From NCBI GenBank assembly GCA_007133065.1, contig SLNJ01000008.1:1-64000 (forward strand): DNA of 64,000 nucleotides, written 5' to 3'. Origin of the DNA: Opitutales bacterium. GTDB taxonomy: Bacteria; Verrucomicrobiota; Verrucomicrobiia; Opitutales; Oceanipulchritudinaceae. The notes beneath the pieces are model-generated. The model had not been told where the DNA came from. It worked only from the letters and a program-made list of their open reading frames with translations, and ran no database searches. This document shows, piece after piece, positions 23,394 to 33,246 of this stretch. Each line of letters opens with the position of its first letter. Positions within the stretch are counted from its first letter, which is position 1. The position numbers and the translations under genes are program-made.

Positions 23394-24254
23394 TCAGCGG
23401 TCCCAGAGCAGGACGAGCAACAATACCGGGAGGTAAATCAGTGAATAGCGAAACAGCCAGATCGCCGCGCGGTCGCGCGCCACGCTGAACCGAAAGCAAG
23501 CCGCGAACCCGGCGTACCCGACACCCAACAGGGCGGCAACCGACCCGTATGCGACTCCGGCACCCGACCAGATCCACGGAGCCAGCGCAACCGGCACCAG
23601 AATCACCGCGTACCATAGGGCTCGCGTCGCCGCGCGCTCACCCGTTGGATCCACCACACTCAGCATTCGGAACCCCCCACGTGCATAGTCCGCGCGGTAA
23701 CGCCACGATATCGGGTAAAAATGCGGCATCTGCCACAGAAACACGATTGCAAAAAGGTTCCAAACCGGGAGTTCGATCGCACCTCCGGCGGCCCCTCCGA
23801 TCAGGGCCGGGAGTGCCCCGGATAACGCGCCGACCTCGGTGCACCACGGCGTGACCTGCTTCATCGGCGTATATATCATCCAGTACACCGCGACGGTGGC
23901 CACCGTCAGTCCCGCCGCCAACCATCCGAACGCGACATGGATCATCCCCACGCCCAGAGCCGACAACGTCAACCCGATCGCCAGTCCCGACGACATACGC
24001 AATCGGCCCGAGGCCAACGGACGGTCCCGCGTGCGCAGCATCCGCGCGTCGAATCGACGCTCGCTCCATTGGTTGAGTGCAGACGCTCCGAATCCTGCCA
24101 GAAGCCCGCCGGCCAGCAATACCGTGAGCGACATCGCCCCGGCAGTCCCCCCGGCGACAATATACCCGCAAAAAACAGGCAGGACAGCCATCGTATTCAG
24201 ACGCAATTTGAATAACTCGGCCGCATCACGCCAGCCATGCACCCGCCCAATCAT
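23394..24254 (-). CDS. ctaB: Protoheme IX farnesyltransferase
   Basis: A 286-residue UbiA-type integral membrane enzyme that converts heme B to heme O for heme-copper oxidases. The prenyl-diphosphate motif is DARMLRTRDRPLASG, and the second family block reads WQMPHFYPISWRYRADYARG. About nine membrane helices are present. An upstream Met at 24296 is also in frame. It is divergent from the heme-copper oxidoreductase operon at 24.5 kb, which could use its product; no ctaA (heme A synthase) is in the window. Confidence 0.88.
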   Translation of the reverse strand: MIGRVHGWRDAAELFKLRLNTMAVLPVFCGYIVAGGTAGAMSLTVLLAGGLLAGFGASALNQWSERRFDARMLRTRDRPLASGRLRMSSGLAIGLTLSALGVGMIHVAFGWLAAGLTVATVAVYWMIYTPMKQVTPWCTEVGALSGALPALIGGAAGGAIELPVWNLFAIVFLWQMPHFYPISWRYRADYARGGFRMLSVVDPTGERAATRALWYAVILVPVALAPWIWSGAGVAYGSVAALLGVGYAGFAACFRFSVARDRAAIWLFRYSLIYLPVLLLVLLWDR

Positions 24255-24448
24255 ACCGGTCGATTTTGCTGATGAAACCGTGCTCACAGGCCGCACAAGG
24301 GGTTCGCAACCGTAAGACAGAGCGCCTTGCGAAAGTACATACCCGCTTCACTACCGGGGGAATTCCGAAAGTCAACGGATTAGCGGATAGAAGGCGGCGG
24401 CGGGATCCGACAAAAAAAAGGATGCTCACATCATATTTTGTCGAATCA

Positions 24449-24490
24449 TTGACGTACATCAATTTCCCCGGGGCGGCGGGGTGCTACGAT
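24449..24490 (+). promoter_or_regulatory. FNR/DNR-type class II promoter
   Basis: TTGACGTACATCAA at 24449-24462 matches the FNR/CRP-family anaerobic box TTGAT-N4-ATCAA with one mismatch. TACGAT at 24485-24490 fits a -10 element. If that hexamer sits at -12 to -7, transcription starts at 24497 and the box centre is at exactly -41.5, the class II activator position. The operon downstream encodes respiratory proteins, which fits control by low oxygen or nitric oxide. Confidence 0.65.
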
Positions 24491-24497
24491 GGCCCCA

Positions 24498-26009
24498 ATG
24501 GAACCGGCCACCGCCAAACTGACATCCTGCGACCTGCTCCCATCGCACACGGGGTTGACCCGGGCGCGATCGCGAGTCGCATCGGGCGTCACGTCAACGG
24601 CGGCGGGGATGCTCAATCCCGCAGCGATGCGCTGGTTCACTCTGGCCGTCGCAAGCCTGCTGCTCTCCGGTCTCTTCGCGGTCTTTCTCGTTGTGGGGAG
24701 GATTCCGATCATCTCCGAATGGATTGCCGATCCGGCATTCTTTCGCCGCTGCCTCGTCCTGCACGTCAACCTCTCGTTGCTCGTCTGGTTCACGGCGTTC
24801 ACAGCGGCCCTCTACTCGCTTCTCCCGACGGCGGTCCGGCCCCGCCTTCAGGCCGGCGGGTTTGCCCTGGCAGCGCTCGGGACGATCGCCATGGCGCTGG
24901 CCACATTCATCCGGGGAACGGAGCCCGTGCTCTCGAACTACATTCCATTCATCGACCACCCGGTTTTCACAAGCGGCGTCGCACTTTTCCTGAGCGGGGT
25001 GGCGATGCTCTACGCGGGGAGCGGTATCTCTCGCTCGCGGACTGTATCGACCCGTTCGGTCCTCCCTCCGGAATCCGCGATTGCGATCCAGGCCGCCGCC
25101 GCGGCCTTCCTGGTCGCCTGCGTCACATTCGTCATCTCATGGTGGACAACGCCACGGGGCATCGCGGCCGCGTCATACTATGAACTCATTGCATGGGGAG
25201 GCGGACACGTGCTGCAGATTGCGAATGTTTCCGCGATGGCCGCCCTCTGGTTTCTGCTTCTGCGCGCCATCGACAATCGGCCCGTGCTCGGCCCGCGGAT
25301 TACGTTCGCGCTCTTTCTCGTGCTGCTTTTCCCGTATCTGAGCGGCCCGATCCTCGCCGCATCGGGAACGGACAACATGCAGTACTACCGGGGCTTCACC
25401 CGCCTGATGCAGTTCGGGATCTTTCCGGTGATCACGGTCTTTCTTTGTGCCGGCGTCGCGCATCTCGTTCGTGCCCGTCGCGACGGAATCCTCGACCGAT
25501 TCACGCTCCGGGATTTCCGCCTGGCCGGGTTCACGGCAAGCGTGATCATGACCGTCTGCGGATTTGCGCTCGGCGCTATGATTCGTGGATCGACCACGCT
25601 CGTGCCGGCCCACTATCACGCCTCCATCGGCGCGGTCACCGTGGCCTTCATGGCCGCCGCGTACCTTCTGCTCGGTCCGCGCCCACAGTGGAACGCGAGC
25701 GCGTTGCGCCGCCGCCTCCCCTCGGTCCAGATCATGCTCTTCGGCGGCGGCCAGCTGCTCTTCGCCCTCGGATTCGCGATCAGCGGATTCCTCGGACTCG
25801 GCCGTAAGATCTACGCGGGCGATCAGGTGGTCCACGCATTCGGGGAGTATGCCGGACTGCTCGCCATGGGTCTGGGCGGGGGCATCGCCGTGACCGGCGG
25901 GATCCTTTTCCTCTGGCTGATCGTGTCGGCAATCCTCGCCGGCGCGCCGCCTCTCCGGAACCAAACTTCGTTTTCGCAGCAATTCAGATCGTCTGACCCA
26001 AACCACTGA
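24498..26009 (+). CDS. Heme-copper oxidoreductase subunit I-like protein lacking the CuB His dyad
   Basis: A 503-residue polytopic protein with about twelve membrane helices, related to heme-copper subunit I. Counted from this start, the helix II heme ligand is His89 (LHVNLSLLVW), the helix VI histidine is His237 (WGGGHVLQ), and the helix X pair is His372/His374 (PAHYHASIG). The two adjacent histidines that complete the CuB site are missing; the matching segment reads YLSGPILAASGTD. It therefore may bind hemes but not a normal CuB. The ATG at 24498 lies one base after the predicted transcript start, so it would be leaderless. A start at 24609, just before the first helix, is the alternative. 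It is the first gene of the operon. Confidence 0.65.
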   Translation: MEPATAKLTSCDLLPSHTGLTRARSRVASGVTSTAAGMLNPAAMRWFTLAVASLLLSGLFAVFLVVGRIPIISEWIADPAFFRRCLVLHVNLSLLVWFTAFTAALYSLLPTAVRPRLQAGGFALAALGTIAMALATFIRGTEPVLSNYIPFIDHPVFTSGVALFLSGVAMLYAGSGISRSRTVSTRSVLPPESAIAIQAAAAAFLVACVTFVISWWTTPRGIAAASYYELIAWGGGHVLQIANVSAMAALWFLLLRAIDNRPVLGPRITFALFLVLLFPYLSGPILAASGTDNMQYYRGFTRLMQFGIFPVITVFLCAGVAHLVRARRDGILDRFTLRDFRLAGFTASVIMTVCGFALGAMIRGSTTLVPAHYHASIGAVTVAFMAAAYLLLGPRPQWNASALRRRLPSVQIMLFGGGQLLFALGFAISGFLGLGRKIYAGDQVVHAFGEYAGLLAMGLGGGIAVTGGILFLWLIVSAILAGAPPLRNQTSFSQQFRSSDPNH

Positions 26010-26015
26010 ACCGTT

Positions 26016-26165
26016 ATGACCGAAAACACACCAAAACACATCCTTCAGCGCTTGATGGACAATCCCTGGATCCTTCTGGCCCTCGGATTGGCGATACCGT
26101 TCATCTCCTACACGCTGTGGGGATGGATCGAGCTCCTCCAGGTCCCCCCGGCTCCCCTGCCCTGA
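26016..26165 (+). CDS. Small single-helix membrane protein of the oxidoreductase operon
   Basis: A 49-residue ORF, start MTENTPKHILQRLMDNPW, with one hydrophobic helix (ILLALGLAIPFISYTLWGW) and a short proline-rich tail. It begins six bases after the subunit I-like stop and ends 37 bases before coxB, inside an operon of membrane respiratory proteins. Its size and topology recall the small accessory subunits of ba3-type oxidases, but no sequence identity can be claimed. Confidence 0.6.
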   Translation: MTENTPKHILQRLMDNPWILLALGLAIPFISYTLWGWIELLQVPPAPLP

Positions 26166-26734: not shown

Positions 26735-28489
26735 ATGAACGCTGCCGACATCACCAATCCCGCTTCTCCGGGCAACAACCCCGAAAGCAACCCGTACGCG
26801 CTCAATGAGAGCAGCCGGGCGCGCACGTGCGACACCACCAAACTGCCCGTCTGCTTTGACGCCCAACGGTTCATTCGTCTGAACGCGGTTCTTGCGGTGG
26901 TCTTCCTTCTCGTAGGTGGAATCGCCGCGCTCCTGCTCGCCCTTACCCGCTGGCAGACGGTGCATCTTCTCCCCGCGGACTGGTTCTACCGCATCCTGAC
27001 ACTGCACGGCTTCAACATGCTGATCTTCTGGATCCTCTTCTTCGAAGTCGCGATCCTCTACTTTTGTTGTACCAGCCTTATCAATGCGCGGTTATACTCG
27101 CGCAAGGTTGCGTGGGTTTCCTTCGGGATGATGGCCGCGGGCGCCCTGATGGTGAACGGAATCATCCTCGCCGGAAAGGCCGATGTCCTGCTCACTTCCT
27201 ACCTCCCGTTACTGGCGCATCCACTCTTCTATCTCGGGATTATTTTCATGGCGGTTGGAACCCTGATCGGGGTCTTCAACTTCTTCGCGACGCTCTTTAT
27301 GGCGCGGCGCCACAAAACCTACGAAGGCTCCGTACCCCTGGTCACATTCGGAGCTACGGCGGCGGCGATCATCGCGGTGGTGACCCTGCTCCACGGCGCG
27401 ATCGTGATGATTCCAACCTTCACCTACTCGATGGGATGGACCGCGCAACCCGATCCAATGTGGTACCGCATGATCTGGTGGGGCCTCGGCCACATGTCAC
27501 AGCAGGTCAACGTCTGCGCCATGGTCGCCGTGTGGTACCTCGTCGCAACCCTCGCCGTCGGCGCCAAACCCCTTAACGAAGCAGTCTGCCGCAGTGCATT
27601 CGTCCTCTACATCCTCTTCATCAACATCGCGTCCGCCCACCACCTCCTCGTCGACCCGGGTGTCGGCGCCACATGGAAGATCTGGAACACCTCCTACGCG
27701 ATGTACCTCGCAGTCCTGGCGTCGATGATCCACGGGTTCACCGTCCCCGCATCGGTAGAAGTCGCCATGCGGACCAAGGGATACATCAAGGGGATCTTCG
27801 GGTGGGTAGCGAACCTGCCGTGGCGCAATCCGGCGTTCTCAGCCGTGGTCCTTTCGCTGGTTATCTTCGGATTCATCGGAGGGATTACCGGAGTGACGCT
27901 GGGGACCCAGCAGATCAACATCATCGCGCACAACACCCTCCGGATCCCCGGACACTTCCACGCCACAGTTGTCGGAGGGACCACCCTCGCGTTCATGGGG
28001 CTCGCCTACTACGTCGTGCCGCTCATATTCCGTCGCGATTACATATGGCGCTCGGCCGCGCGGATCCAGCCGTGGATCTTCGCCGGAGGCATTACACTGA
28101 TGTCGTTCGGTATGTCCTTCGCCGGATCCATGGGTGTCGCCCGTCGCACCTGGGATATCGACCCCGCCGGCGCGGTGTACGGTCCACCCGCCCACGTCAT
28201 GCTCGGGCTCGCTGGTATCGGCGGCTCCCTCGCCTTCATCGGCCTGCTTCTCTTCGTCCTCCTCACGGTGGGAACCCTGCTGTTCGGCCGCAACAACACC
28301 GGACGGGCCATGGAGTCGTGGGGCGAGCCCCGGGATATCGGCGACGCTGCATCTGTCGCCCGGAAAACCGACAAGGAAGAGCACAAGACACCGGGAACGC
28401 TGGTGCTCGTTCTCATCTTCCTCGCCGTCTTCGCCGTCTACTACTTCGCCAACTGGAAGGCTCTGGCCGACGTCTGGCCTGTGCGATGA
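26735..28489 (+). CDS. B-type heme-copper subunit I with Gln in place of the active-site Tyr (putative NO reductase)
   Basis: A 584-residue catalytic subunit with at least twelve helices. Low-spin heme ligand His91 (LHGFNMLIFW), CuB ligands His253, His302 and His303 (SAHHLLVDPG), and helix X His407/His409 (PGHFHATVVGG) are all present. The overall pattern follows ba3-type (B-family) oxidases. Oxygen reductases of this family carry H-P-x-x-Y, whose tyrosine is cross-linked to a CuB histidine and needed for O-O cleavage. Here the segment is GHMSQQV, with Gln257 four residues after His253. Loss of that tyrosine separates nitric oxide reductases from oxygen reductases in this superfamily, so NO reduction is the favoured call; activity is inferred. 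Confidence 0.8.
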   Translation: MNAADITNPASPGNNPESNPYALNESSRARTCDTTKLPVCFDAQRFIRLNAVLAVVFLLVGGIAALLLALTRWQTVHLLPADWFYRILTLHGFNMLIFWILFFEVAILYFCCTSLINARLYSRKVAWVSFGMMAAGALMVNGIILAGKADVLLTSYLPLLAHPLFYLGIIFMAVGTLIGVFNFFATLFMARRHKTYEGSVPLVTFGATAAAIIAVVTLLHGAIVMIPTFTYSMGWTAQPDPMWYRMIWWGLGHMSQQVNVCAMVAVWYLVATLAVGAKPLNEAVCRSAFVLYILFINIASAHHLLVDPGVGATWKIWNTSYAMYLAVLASMIHGFTVPASVEVAMRTKGYIKGIFGWVANLPWRNPAFSAVVLSLVIFGFIGGITGVTLGTQQINIIAHNTLRIPGHFHATVVGGTTLAFMGLAYYVVPLIFRRDYIWRSAARIQPWIFAGGITLMSFGMSFAGSMGVARRTWDIDPAGAVYGPPAHVMLGLAGIGGSLAFIGLLLFVLLTVGTLLFGRNNTGRAMESWGEPRDIGDAASVARKTDKEEHKTPGTLVLVLIFLAVFAVYYFANWKALADVWPVR

Positions 28490-28583: not shown

Positions 28584-29525
28584 ATGAAACCGCCCCGCTC
28601 AATCCTCCAACCGCTCGCGCGATTCTTCAGTGAATCCGGGTTTCCGCTCTTCATGCTGGCCGTCCTGGCCGTGTGGCAAGCGGTCCTGATCGCCCTGGTC
28701 TTCGCGCCGGCTGACCTCGGCCGATGGGGCGGACTGGCTTCGGATTTTCGGGTGTGGTGTCTCAGCTACAACCCGGCGACCGGGGCGATGGACTGGACGG
28801 CCGCCTGGATCATGCTCTCGCAGCCACCGATCCTCGCGCTGCTGCTCTACGGTGTCTGGCACGGCACCCTACGCAATGCCTGGAGCCGCTCGTGGAAGTC
28901 CGTCGCCGGCCCGGCGGTAGCGGGGATCGTCGTCGCCGCTCTCACCGGCGGAGCGCTCTACGCCGGATTCAGCCCGGATCCCCCCGATCTCCCCCTCGAG
29001 TTCCCCGGCGAAAGAATCCGCACTGCGCTTCCCGCACCGGAATTCGCACTCGAAAACCAGGCTGGTGCCACGGTCTCCCTGCGGGACTTCGAGGGGAAGG
29101 TTGTTCTCATGACCGGGATATACACAACCTGCGGTGCCACCTGTCCGATGCTCATCCTGCAATCGCTGGAAGCCGTCGACGCACTCCCGGAAACGCTGCG
29201 TTCCGAGGTGGTTTTCGTCGCCGTCACGCTCGACCCGGAGAACGACACGCCCGAGGCGATGGCCGCCCTCGCCCGCCGTTACGGTGTCGGGCTTCCAAAC
29301 CATCAGTTCCTCACCGGCGACCCGGAACACGTCAACCGCGTTCTTGACCACCTTCAGATCGCTCGCCAGCGCAACGAACAATCCGGGCAGATCGACCACG
29401 CCAACCTCTTCTTCCTCGTCGATCGCAACGGCCGAATCGCCTATCGCTTCAACCTCGGCGAGCGCCACGAAAGCTGGGTCGCCGCCGCGCTGCGTACGCT
29501 CGTCGACGAATCGCCACACCGGTGA
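28584..29525 (+). CDS. SCO1/SenC-type copper chaperone fused to N-terminal membrane helices
   Basis: A 313-residue protein. Three hydrophobic segments lie near 20-41, 72-92 and 107-128. A thioredoxin-fold SCO domain follows from about 145. The copper/redox ligands are Cys183 and Cys187 (TTCGATCPM) and His272 (IDHANLFF). SCO proteins load copper into the CuA site of subunit II, matching the coxB gene upstream. Ordinary SCO proteins have one anchor; the three-helix N-terminus is unusual. The start at 28584 begins right before the first helix. Confidence 0.82.
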   Translation: MKPPRSILQPLARFFSESGFPLFMLAVLAVWQAVLIALVFAPADLGRWGGLASDFRVWCLSYNPATGAMDWTAAWIMLSQPPILALLLYGVWHGTLRNAWSRSWKSVAGPAVAGIVVAALTGGALYAGFSPDPPDLPLEFPGERIRTALPAPEFALENQAGATVSLRDFEGKVVLMTGIYTTCGATCPMLILQSLEAVDALPETLRSEVVFVAVTLDPENDTPEAMAALARRYGVGLPNHQFLTGDPEHVNRVLDHLQIARQRNEQSGQIDHANLFFLVDRNGRIAYRFNLGERHESWVAAALRTLVDESPHR

Positions 29526-31740: not shown

Positions 31741-32099
31741 CACACGCTGCGCAACCGGTTCGGCTACGAAACGCCCCGGTTCGAGGGGCTGTTCATCCTG
31801 ATCGAAGGCGAGCACAATTGGGTTCTGACCAACCGCAGCTACACCGGATGCCCTCCGCCACACCACAACGACCGCACCGTCATCGCCGACCCCTCGACGA
31901 TCGCCTTGAATCGACTCTTCCTCGGATACGCCGGATATCACAGTACGGCAACGAGTTTGGAGTCAGCCTGACCCGATCCCTCGGCCACAATCTCAGAGTG
32001 CTCTTGAAAACCACTCGATATATCGGACGAACCGGTGCGCCGACCGGAGTCGATGTTGACAAATCCAAAATCTGGGCACAGCTCGAATTCGATCTCTAA
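31741..32099 (+). pseudogene. Remnant of an outer-membrane beta-barrel gene (alginate-export/porin-like)
   Basis: Two pieces of one kind of protein are joined out of frame. The first (31741-31950) reads HTLRNRFGYETPRFEGLF and, later, TVIADPSTIALNRLFL, typical of early strands in alginate-export-type barrels. The second, from about 31938 in another frame, reads ISQYGNEFGVSLTRSLGHN and ends SKIWAQLEFDL, a classic barrel C-terminus. The signal peptide and most of the barrel are gone. The remnant abuts an alginate-lyase-type gene, suggesting a former uptake partner. Confidence 0.6.
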
Positions 32100-32115
32100 A
32101 CTCGACCTCTGTGCT

Positions 32116-33246
32116 ATGAAACGCCATATCCTCGTCTTTGCCTCTATCCTGCTTGCATGGCCAGCGGTCATTCAGGCGTCACCACCGACTCGAACAATAA
32201 CCAATACCATGAACGGCGATCAACCCAATCTCCATGGGCACGTATTCCTTACCCCGGACCGGATTATCCGTCTTCAGGAACGGGTTGCGGAGCGCCGCGA
32301 ACCGACTTGGTCCGCGTGGCAACAGGTGCGGGAGGAGGCCGACAAGGCACGCGAACGAGCGCCGCAGGTCCCGGAGGTCTGGCACGTCCCGGGGTTCTAT
32401 GACGACGCCGATGGACACCGCAACTCCAAGCGGGTGCTCCAGGACGACGCCAACGCGACCTACACGCTCGCCCTGGCGTATCAGATCACCGGCGACGATG
32501 CTTACGCTGATGCCGCCCTGCGCTTCATCAATGCATGGAGCCGACTCGAAAAGCTCCGCACCGCAGACGACTCCACCCTCTCCTTCAGCTATCACTTTCC
32601 CGCAATCATCTTCGGGGCGGCCCTGCTCAGCGAATACGAAGCATGGACCCCCGACGATCGCGAACAATTCGCGGCGTTCCTCAAAGAGCGCGCGCTTCCG
32701 ATGAACACAATGCAGGGAACAAACAACTGGGGAAACTGGGGGCTGGTTCTGGTACTGGCAATCGCCGCGTATCTACAGGACGCCGGGCTCTTCGAAGAAG
32801 GCGTGGCACGCTGGAAGGATTTCATCGAGCACCAGATCGCCGAGGACGGACACCTCCCACACGAAGTAACGCGCAATCGCGGACTTGGTGGACACGGGAT
32901 CTGGTACTCCCACTTCACCCTCATGCCCCAGACCATCGCCGCCGAGATCGCCCGCGTGAACGGCGTCGACCTCTACGATTACGAGTCCCCCTCGGGCCGT
33001 ACCTTGAAACTCGCCTTTCACCGACTCGCACCATGGGTCCGAAATCCCGACTCCTTCCCCTACTACAAAGGCGGTGACGACTACCCGCTTCGAGCCAGCA
33101 CCTATATCAGCTACTTTGAGATCCTGCACCCGCGCTGGCCGCATCCCGACGCCCGGGCACTCATCGAACAGCACCGCCCCCTCACCGCGACACACAGCGC
33201 CCCGCACATCACCTTCACGCACGGGCACGAGGGAGAGGCGGAATAG
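32116..33246 (+). CDS. Alginate-lyase-type polysaccharide lyase, secreted
   Basis: A 376-residue exported enzyme with a signal peptide (KRHILVFASILLAWPAVIQA). The rest is a mostly helical (alpha/alpha)-toroid of the alginate_lyase type, expected to cut uronate polymers by beta-elimination. Landmarks are TNNWGNWG at 202-209, RNRGLGGHGIWYSHFTLMPQ around 253-272 (candidate catalytic Tyr264 and an Arg) and YKGGDDYPLR. In PL5 AlgL the first motif has a histidine (NNHxYW), absent here, so another PL family is possible. A decayed barrel gene precedes it. Confidence 0.7.
   Translation: MKRHILVFASILLAWPAVIQASPPTRTITNTMNGDQPNLHGHVFLTPDRIIRLQERVAERREPTWSAWQQVREEADKARERAPQVPEVWHVPGFYDDADGHRNSKRVLQDDANATYTLALAYQITGDDAYADAALRFINAWSRLEKLRTADDSTLSFSYHFPAIIFGAALLSEYEAWTPDDREQFAAFLKERALPMNTMQGTNNWGNWGLVLVLAIAAYLQDAGLFEEGVARWKDFIEHQIAEDGHLPHEVTRNRGLGGHGIWYSHFTLMPQTIAAEIARVNGVDLYDYESPSGRTLKLAFHRLAPWVRNPDSFPYYKGGDDYPLRASTYISYFEILHPRWPHPDARALIEQHRPLTATHSAPHITFTHGHEGEAE

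Follow-up and report, generated by a model that had tools for sequence, protein, structure and literature searches.

An Opitutales-like MAG encodes a probable eNOR-type nitric oxide reductase together with a CuB-less haem-copper paralogue

The gene at 26735-28489 of the window, a stretch of 64,000 nucleotides from an Opitutales bacterium (contig SLNJ01000008.1), very probably codes for an eNOR subunit I. Enzymes of this class are nitric oxide reductases and belong to the B-family branch within the haem-copper superfamily. Together with the CuA subunit II encoded upstream and a small transmembrane (TM) protein, it would reduce NO to N2O in an Opitutales-like MAG whose own nirK would supply the NO. 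The main enzyme is of a known kind, as eNOR is an already named, although uncommon, class. The surprise of the locus, and the part that deserves specialist attention, is a CuB-less paralogue of subunit I, whose gene opens the operon and had been missed in the preliminary description. The features of the locus are collected in Table 1.

Table 1. Features of the eNOR locus in the window
Feature	Position	Strand	Evidence and remarks
ctaB/cyoE haem O synthase	23394..24296	-	TIGR01473 above cut-off; divergent from operon
DNR/FNR-type operator, TTGACGTACATCAA	24449..24462	.	Perfect TTGA-N6-TCAA, upstream of operon
CuB-less paralogue of eNOR subunit I (partner protein), first operon gene	24489..26009	+	PF00115 1e-13; predicted model
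Small single-TM protein, 49 aa, MTENTPKHILQRLMDNPWILLALGLAIPFISYTLWGWIELLQVPPAPLP	26016..26165	+	Like ORFs at other eNOR loci
eNOR subunit II, 174 aa	26203..26727	+	PF00116/TIGR02866 matches; one N-terminal TM helix, CuA cupredoxin domain
eNOR subunit I, 584 aa	26735..28489	+	ATG start; open, intact ORF
SCO1/SenC-family copper chaperone	28584..29525	+	PF02630 3e-25
Di-haem cytochrome b/4Fe-4S/FlpD fusion, 718 aa	29580..31736	+	H119, H133, H220, H234; FlpD domain

Active-site residues of subunit I

The preliminary description placed the six haem and CuB histidines at positions 91, 253, 302, 303, 407 and 409 and a Gln at the site of the catalytic Tyr, and both assignments proved exact. H91 and H409 are the ligands of the low-spin haem, H407 is the ligand of the high-spin haem, and H253, H302 and H303 are the CuB ligands. 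Gln257 (codon 27503-27505; GH253-M-S-Q-Q257) lies at H+4 from H253, the site of the cross-linked Tyr, and in a sequence alignment to ba3 oxidase H253 matches H233 and Gln257 matches Y237. All of the clade sequences that cover column 257 have Gln (95/95). The relatives were collected by peptide patterns that did not include the Gln257 motif, so this conservation was not built into the sample. Relatives of subunit I with 71-78% identity were found in eight other members of the same order. A sequencing error or chance at Q257 was ruled out because the relatives have Gln too.

The preliminary description had also raised the question of a Tyr reaching CuB from another helix. As judged from the sequence, the helix-VI Tyr and the helix-VII Tyr of the C-family, located six residues before the HH pair (H-6), are both absent. 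An O2 reductase with a relocated Tyr was rejected on the same grounds: the catalytic Tyr has not moved to the C-family helix-VII position because Ile296 sits there. The C-family-like protein of the same genome has a Tyr at the position aligned with Ile296. Tyr292 of helix VII is invariant and lies ten residues before H302, one helical turn below the site of the C-family Tyr; the polar residues Y85, Y156, Y268, N318, T319 and Y321 are also invariant in the subunit I alignment. The Thermus thermophilus plasmid homologue (L037:8983-10665) has GHFKG where all others have GHFH, placing a Lys at the low-spin haem His; the remaining site is intact.

Fold, tree placement and class

The AlphaFold model of subunit I (pLDDT 85.2, pTM 0.88) was compared with solved structures using Foldseek, and the top PDB match was the ba3 oxidase 1xme with a TM score of about 0.75. 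The nearest solved relative by sequence is also ba3 oxidase (E about 1e-45). Like the locus, the Thermus thermophilus ba3-type cytochrome c oxidase (1xme and other structures) has a CuA subunit II; however, it has Y237 where the window protein has Gln257, the identity in the structural alignment is 26%, and the helix VI-VII signature differs. In the maximum-likelihood tree the Gln-type sequences all group in a single clade with 100/100 support, next to ten B-family sequences that have the Tyr. The clade includes plasmid homologues of Thermus thermophilus, Thermomicrobium roseum and Defluviimonas, and the subunit I of the window falls within its Verrucomicrobiota part. The outgroup branches of this tree are long, and the sole split relied on is that between the Gln-type and the Tyr-bearing B-family sequences.

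An eNOR is identified by a Gln where other members of the superfamily have the active-site Tyr or another residue (PMC8756737). Table A4 of that work gives the residue at this site as Y in oxidases, E in cNOR and qNOR, N in sNOR, D in gNOR and Q in eNOR, and lists one proton channel for eNOR. According to PMC11388526, biochemical characterisation of eNOR has been achieved and the class derives from B-family oxidases; the same source reports bNOR from Bacillota only. Moreover, eNorAB occurs in Verruconatronum, a cultured member of the Opitutales, where eNor is the NO reductase named (PMC13274419). This organism converted 4 mM nitrite to 1.5-1.7 mM N2O, near the expected 2:1 ratio, and its growth yield was doubled with nitrite (PMC13274419).

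The locus combines the Gln at the Tyr site, the six His, a subunit II gene directly upstream and a clade on the B-family side of the tree. It thereby resembles the published eNORs (PMC8756737; PMC11388526; PMC13274419), one of which is found in the same order. The helix-VI H+4 Tyr of the B-family O2 reductases is Q257 here, and the helix-VII Tyr (HH-6) of the C-family O2 reductases is Ile296. sNOR, gNOR, cNOR, qNOR and bNOR are likewise haem-copper NO reductases, but the first four have N, D, E and E where subunit I has Gln (PMC8756737 Table A4); bNOR is set apart by its reported restriction to Bacillota (PMC11388526). The eNOR assignment rests on the diagnostic residue, the taxon overlap (Thermus, Thermomicrobium, Proteobacteria) and the operon layout, with the Thermus and Thermomicrobium homologues standing in for the published references Rhodothermus marinus, SURF MAG 42 RJP50323.1 and Ardenticatena. 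The tree, the fold and the residue tests support a B-family-derived NO reductase over an O2 reductase. The preliminary description had reached the same reading, a B-type NO reductase rather than an oxidase, although without the name eNOR. NO reduction by the 26735-28489 protein is a prediction.

The operon, its regulation and the route from nitrite to N2O

The operon runs from the partner gene through the small TM ORF, CuA subunit II, subunit I and the SCO gene to the cytochrome b/FeS/FlpD fusion, with ctaB divergent. Whereas the accounts of eNOR in the literature cited above describe two subunits, this locus adds the CuB-less partner, the small TM ORF, the SCO gene and the fusion. The CuA subunit II of the preliminary description was borne out by its domain matches and by its CuA-domain residues (H121, C156, E158, C160, H164 and M167), of which the ligands H121, C156, C160, H164 and M167 are invariant in 12 aligned sequences. 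A subunit II gene is present at every eNOR locus except those cut by a contig end. Small ORFs lie directly 5' of subunit II at most eNOR loci and have the common pattern (L/F)(M/L/Y)DNPxLLL...(Y/F)TxWG; the 49-aa protein is a probable small subunit of the complex and may be analogous to subunit IIa of ba3. At nearly all eNOR loci an SCO gene lies next to the gene for subunit I, and ctaB is found near eNOR at many. The fusion, an unusual protein with two 4Fe-4S motifs starting at C345 and C382, is kept at most eNOR loci in many phyla and is a probable electron-feeding partner. Directly 3' of the operon is a gene for an alginate-lyase-family protein (32035-33246; PF05426, 1e-44).

In the proposed mechanism, subunit I would act with the upstream CuA subunit II and the small TM protein. 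Electrons would enter at CuA and pass by way of the low-spin haem (H91/H409) to the site formed by the high-spin haem (H407) and CuB (H253, H302, H303), where two NO would be converted to N2O. Gln257 would replace the Tyr needed by oxidases for the splitting of O2. The SCO1/SenC protein probably serves CuA assembly, CtaB would carry out haem modification, and the fusion probably relays quinol electrons. NO would be supplied by the TsNirK-type nitrite reductase of the genome.

This NirK is encoded outside the eNOR operon, on contig C13 of the same genome (L142:4859-6736), and has a C-terminal cupredoxin domain. Its best PDB match is TsNirK (6hbe), an enzyme with a tethered cupredoxin domain that reduces nitrite (PMC6400189); the match scores 428 bits and spans the core together with the third domain. 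The sensing loop, HGASIH, has Ser as in TsNirK (HGxSIH). This nitrite reductase would be the NO-producing partner of the eNOR.

The anaerobic promoter of the preliminary description was recovered as a conserved box. A perfect TTGA-N6-TCAA was found in 22 of the 23 verrucomicrobial operons that start with the partner gene, against 0.03 expected from shuffles, and another precedes nirK of the same genome (L142:4759, 100 bp upstream). DNR recognises TTGATnnnnATCAA (PMC1274295). One clear CRP/FNR regulator is encoded in the genome and would bind these boxes. Since nirK and the eNOR operon have the same DNR/FNR-type operator, the organism probably carries out a truncated denitrification, from nitrite to N2O. 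The PF00115 proteins of the genome are only an A-family oxidase, a C-family-like protein, the eNOR subunit I and the partner protein; no other NOR, and no cNOR or qNOR, was found among these matches. The C-family-like protein (L002:1381-2865, contig C161) is divergent, scoring 238 bits against a ccoN cut-off of 583, and shares 48% identity with a protein from a Paraburkholderia plasmid. NosZ was searched for with TIGR04246, as the Pfam nos_propeller search was uninformative (its controls were silent). Only short, cupredoxin-level matches were obtained and NosZ was not detected in the assembly, although its absence is not certain in a MAG that is 94.3% complete.

The possibility was considered that the protein is a B-family O2 reductase, perhaps a high-affinity oxidase, able to cleave O2 although it has no cross-linked Tyr. 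The B-family fold and the CuA subunit II are consistent with this explanation, as is the fact that NCBI models name such proteins cytochrome c oxidase. Some B-family NORs may reduce O2 too. However, the Tyr is missing from both known positions, the Tyr-bearing B-family sequences all lie across the 100/100 branch, the operator is common to the eNOR operon and nirK, an A-family oxidase and the C-family-like protein are already encoded elsewhere in the genome, and the physiology of related Opitutales yields N2O, making an O2 reductase very improbable. NO dismutation, or some other NOx reaction at this site, is suggested only by Gln257 and Gln256 being unusual residues there. The known NO dismutases are relatives of qNOR on the C-family branch, whereas the window protein belongs to the B-family and has the full CuB His set, and this explanation can hardly be entertained.

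An eNOR would also fit the locus if it served mainly in NO detoxification and not in respiration. In this respect, the Thermus plasmid homologue adjoins DUF542 (RIC/YtfE-type) and Rrf2 genes and the Defluviimonas homologue adjoins a hemerythrin gene. Nevertheless, the DNR/FNR-type operator shared with the nitrite reductase gene, the doubled growth yield of Verruconatronum, which has an eNOR relative, on nitrite, and the respiratory electron supply suggested by the CuA subunit and the cytochrome b fusion argue against detoxification as the main function, which appears rather unlikely. The choice between the two is a question of role, and the chemistry, NO reduction by an eNOR, is unchanged by it.

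The CuB-less partner protein

The start codon of the partner gene is uncertain, and an ATG at 24609 is possible. H92, H240, H375 and H377 are invariant in 53 sequences and the helix-VII His pair of CuB is gone. By sequence alone, the protein appears to retain the two ligands of the low-spin haem, the ligand of the high-spin haem and one former CuB ligand, and a copper site could presumably no longer form. The fold rests on the predicted model (pLDDT 87.3, pTM 0.87), whose top PDB match is ba3 oxidase, because a profile search of the PDB sequences matched nothing.

In the tree the partner sequences form one clade, sister to the eNOR subunit I (100/100). An accidental ORF or a decaying copy was rejected, and the gene was taken as a paralogue, because it is conserved across many phyla with four invariant His. 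It recurs beside eNOR in many phyla, and 41 of the 80 named eNOR loci carry it. Within the phylum, 338 genomes were covered: six have the gene, all six with eNOR, and eNOR is present in seven. No match was obtained on plasmids. The eNOR genomes in which the gene was not found include those of Gemmatimonadota and Alphaproteobacteria and several more, and the protein was therefore rejected as a universal eNOR subunit. In one Schekmanbacteria MAG (L177:5443-7005) and one Acidobacteria MAG (L161), both with eNOR, the gene lies apart from eNOR.

Taken together, we infer that the partner is a haem-bearing accessory subunit in a subset of eNORs. A further proposal, which is tentative and somewhat doubtful, is that in many phyla it is the obligate CuB-less sister subunit of a hetero-oligomeric eNOR, with a role in electron or haem relay, NO binding or assembly. 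A literature search returned no published description of 24489-26009 or of CuB-less haem-copper paralogues, which is weak evidence of novelty. Should the partner prove to be a functional subunit, it would exemplify the rare retention of a haem-copper paralogue for a purpose other than gas reduction, and the current two-subunit picture of eNOR would fall short in organisms that have the partner.

With the eNOR, a verrucomicrobial MAG that has neither cNOR nor qNOR gains a complete route from nitrite to N2O under one predicted regulator. The product of eNOR, N2O, is a greenhouse gas, and since standard annotation names such genes cytochrome c oxidase, N2O producers are missed.
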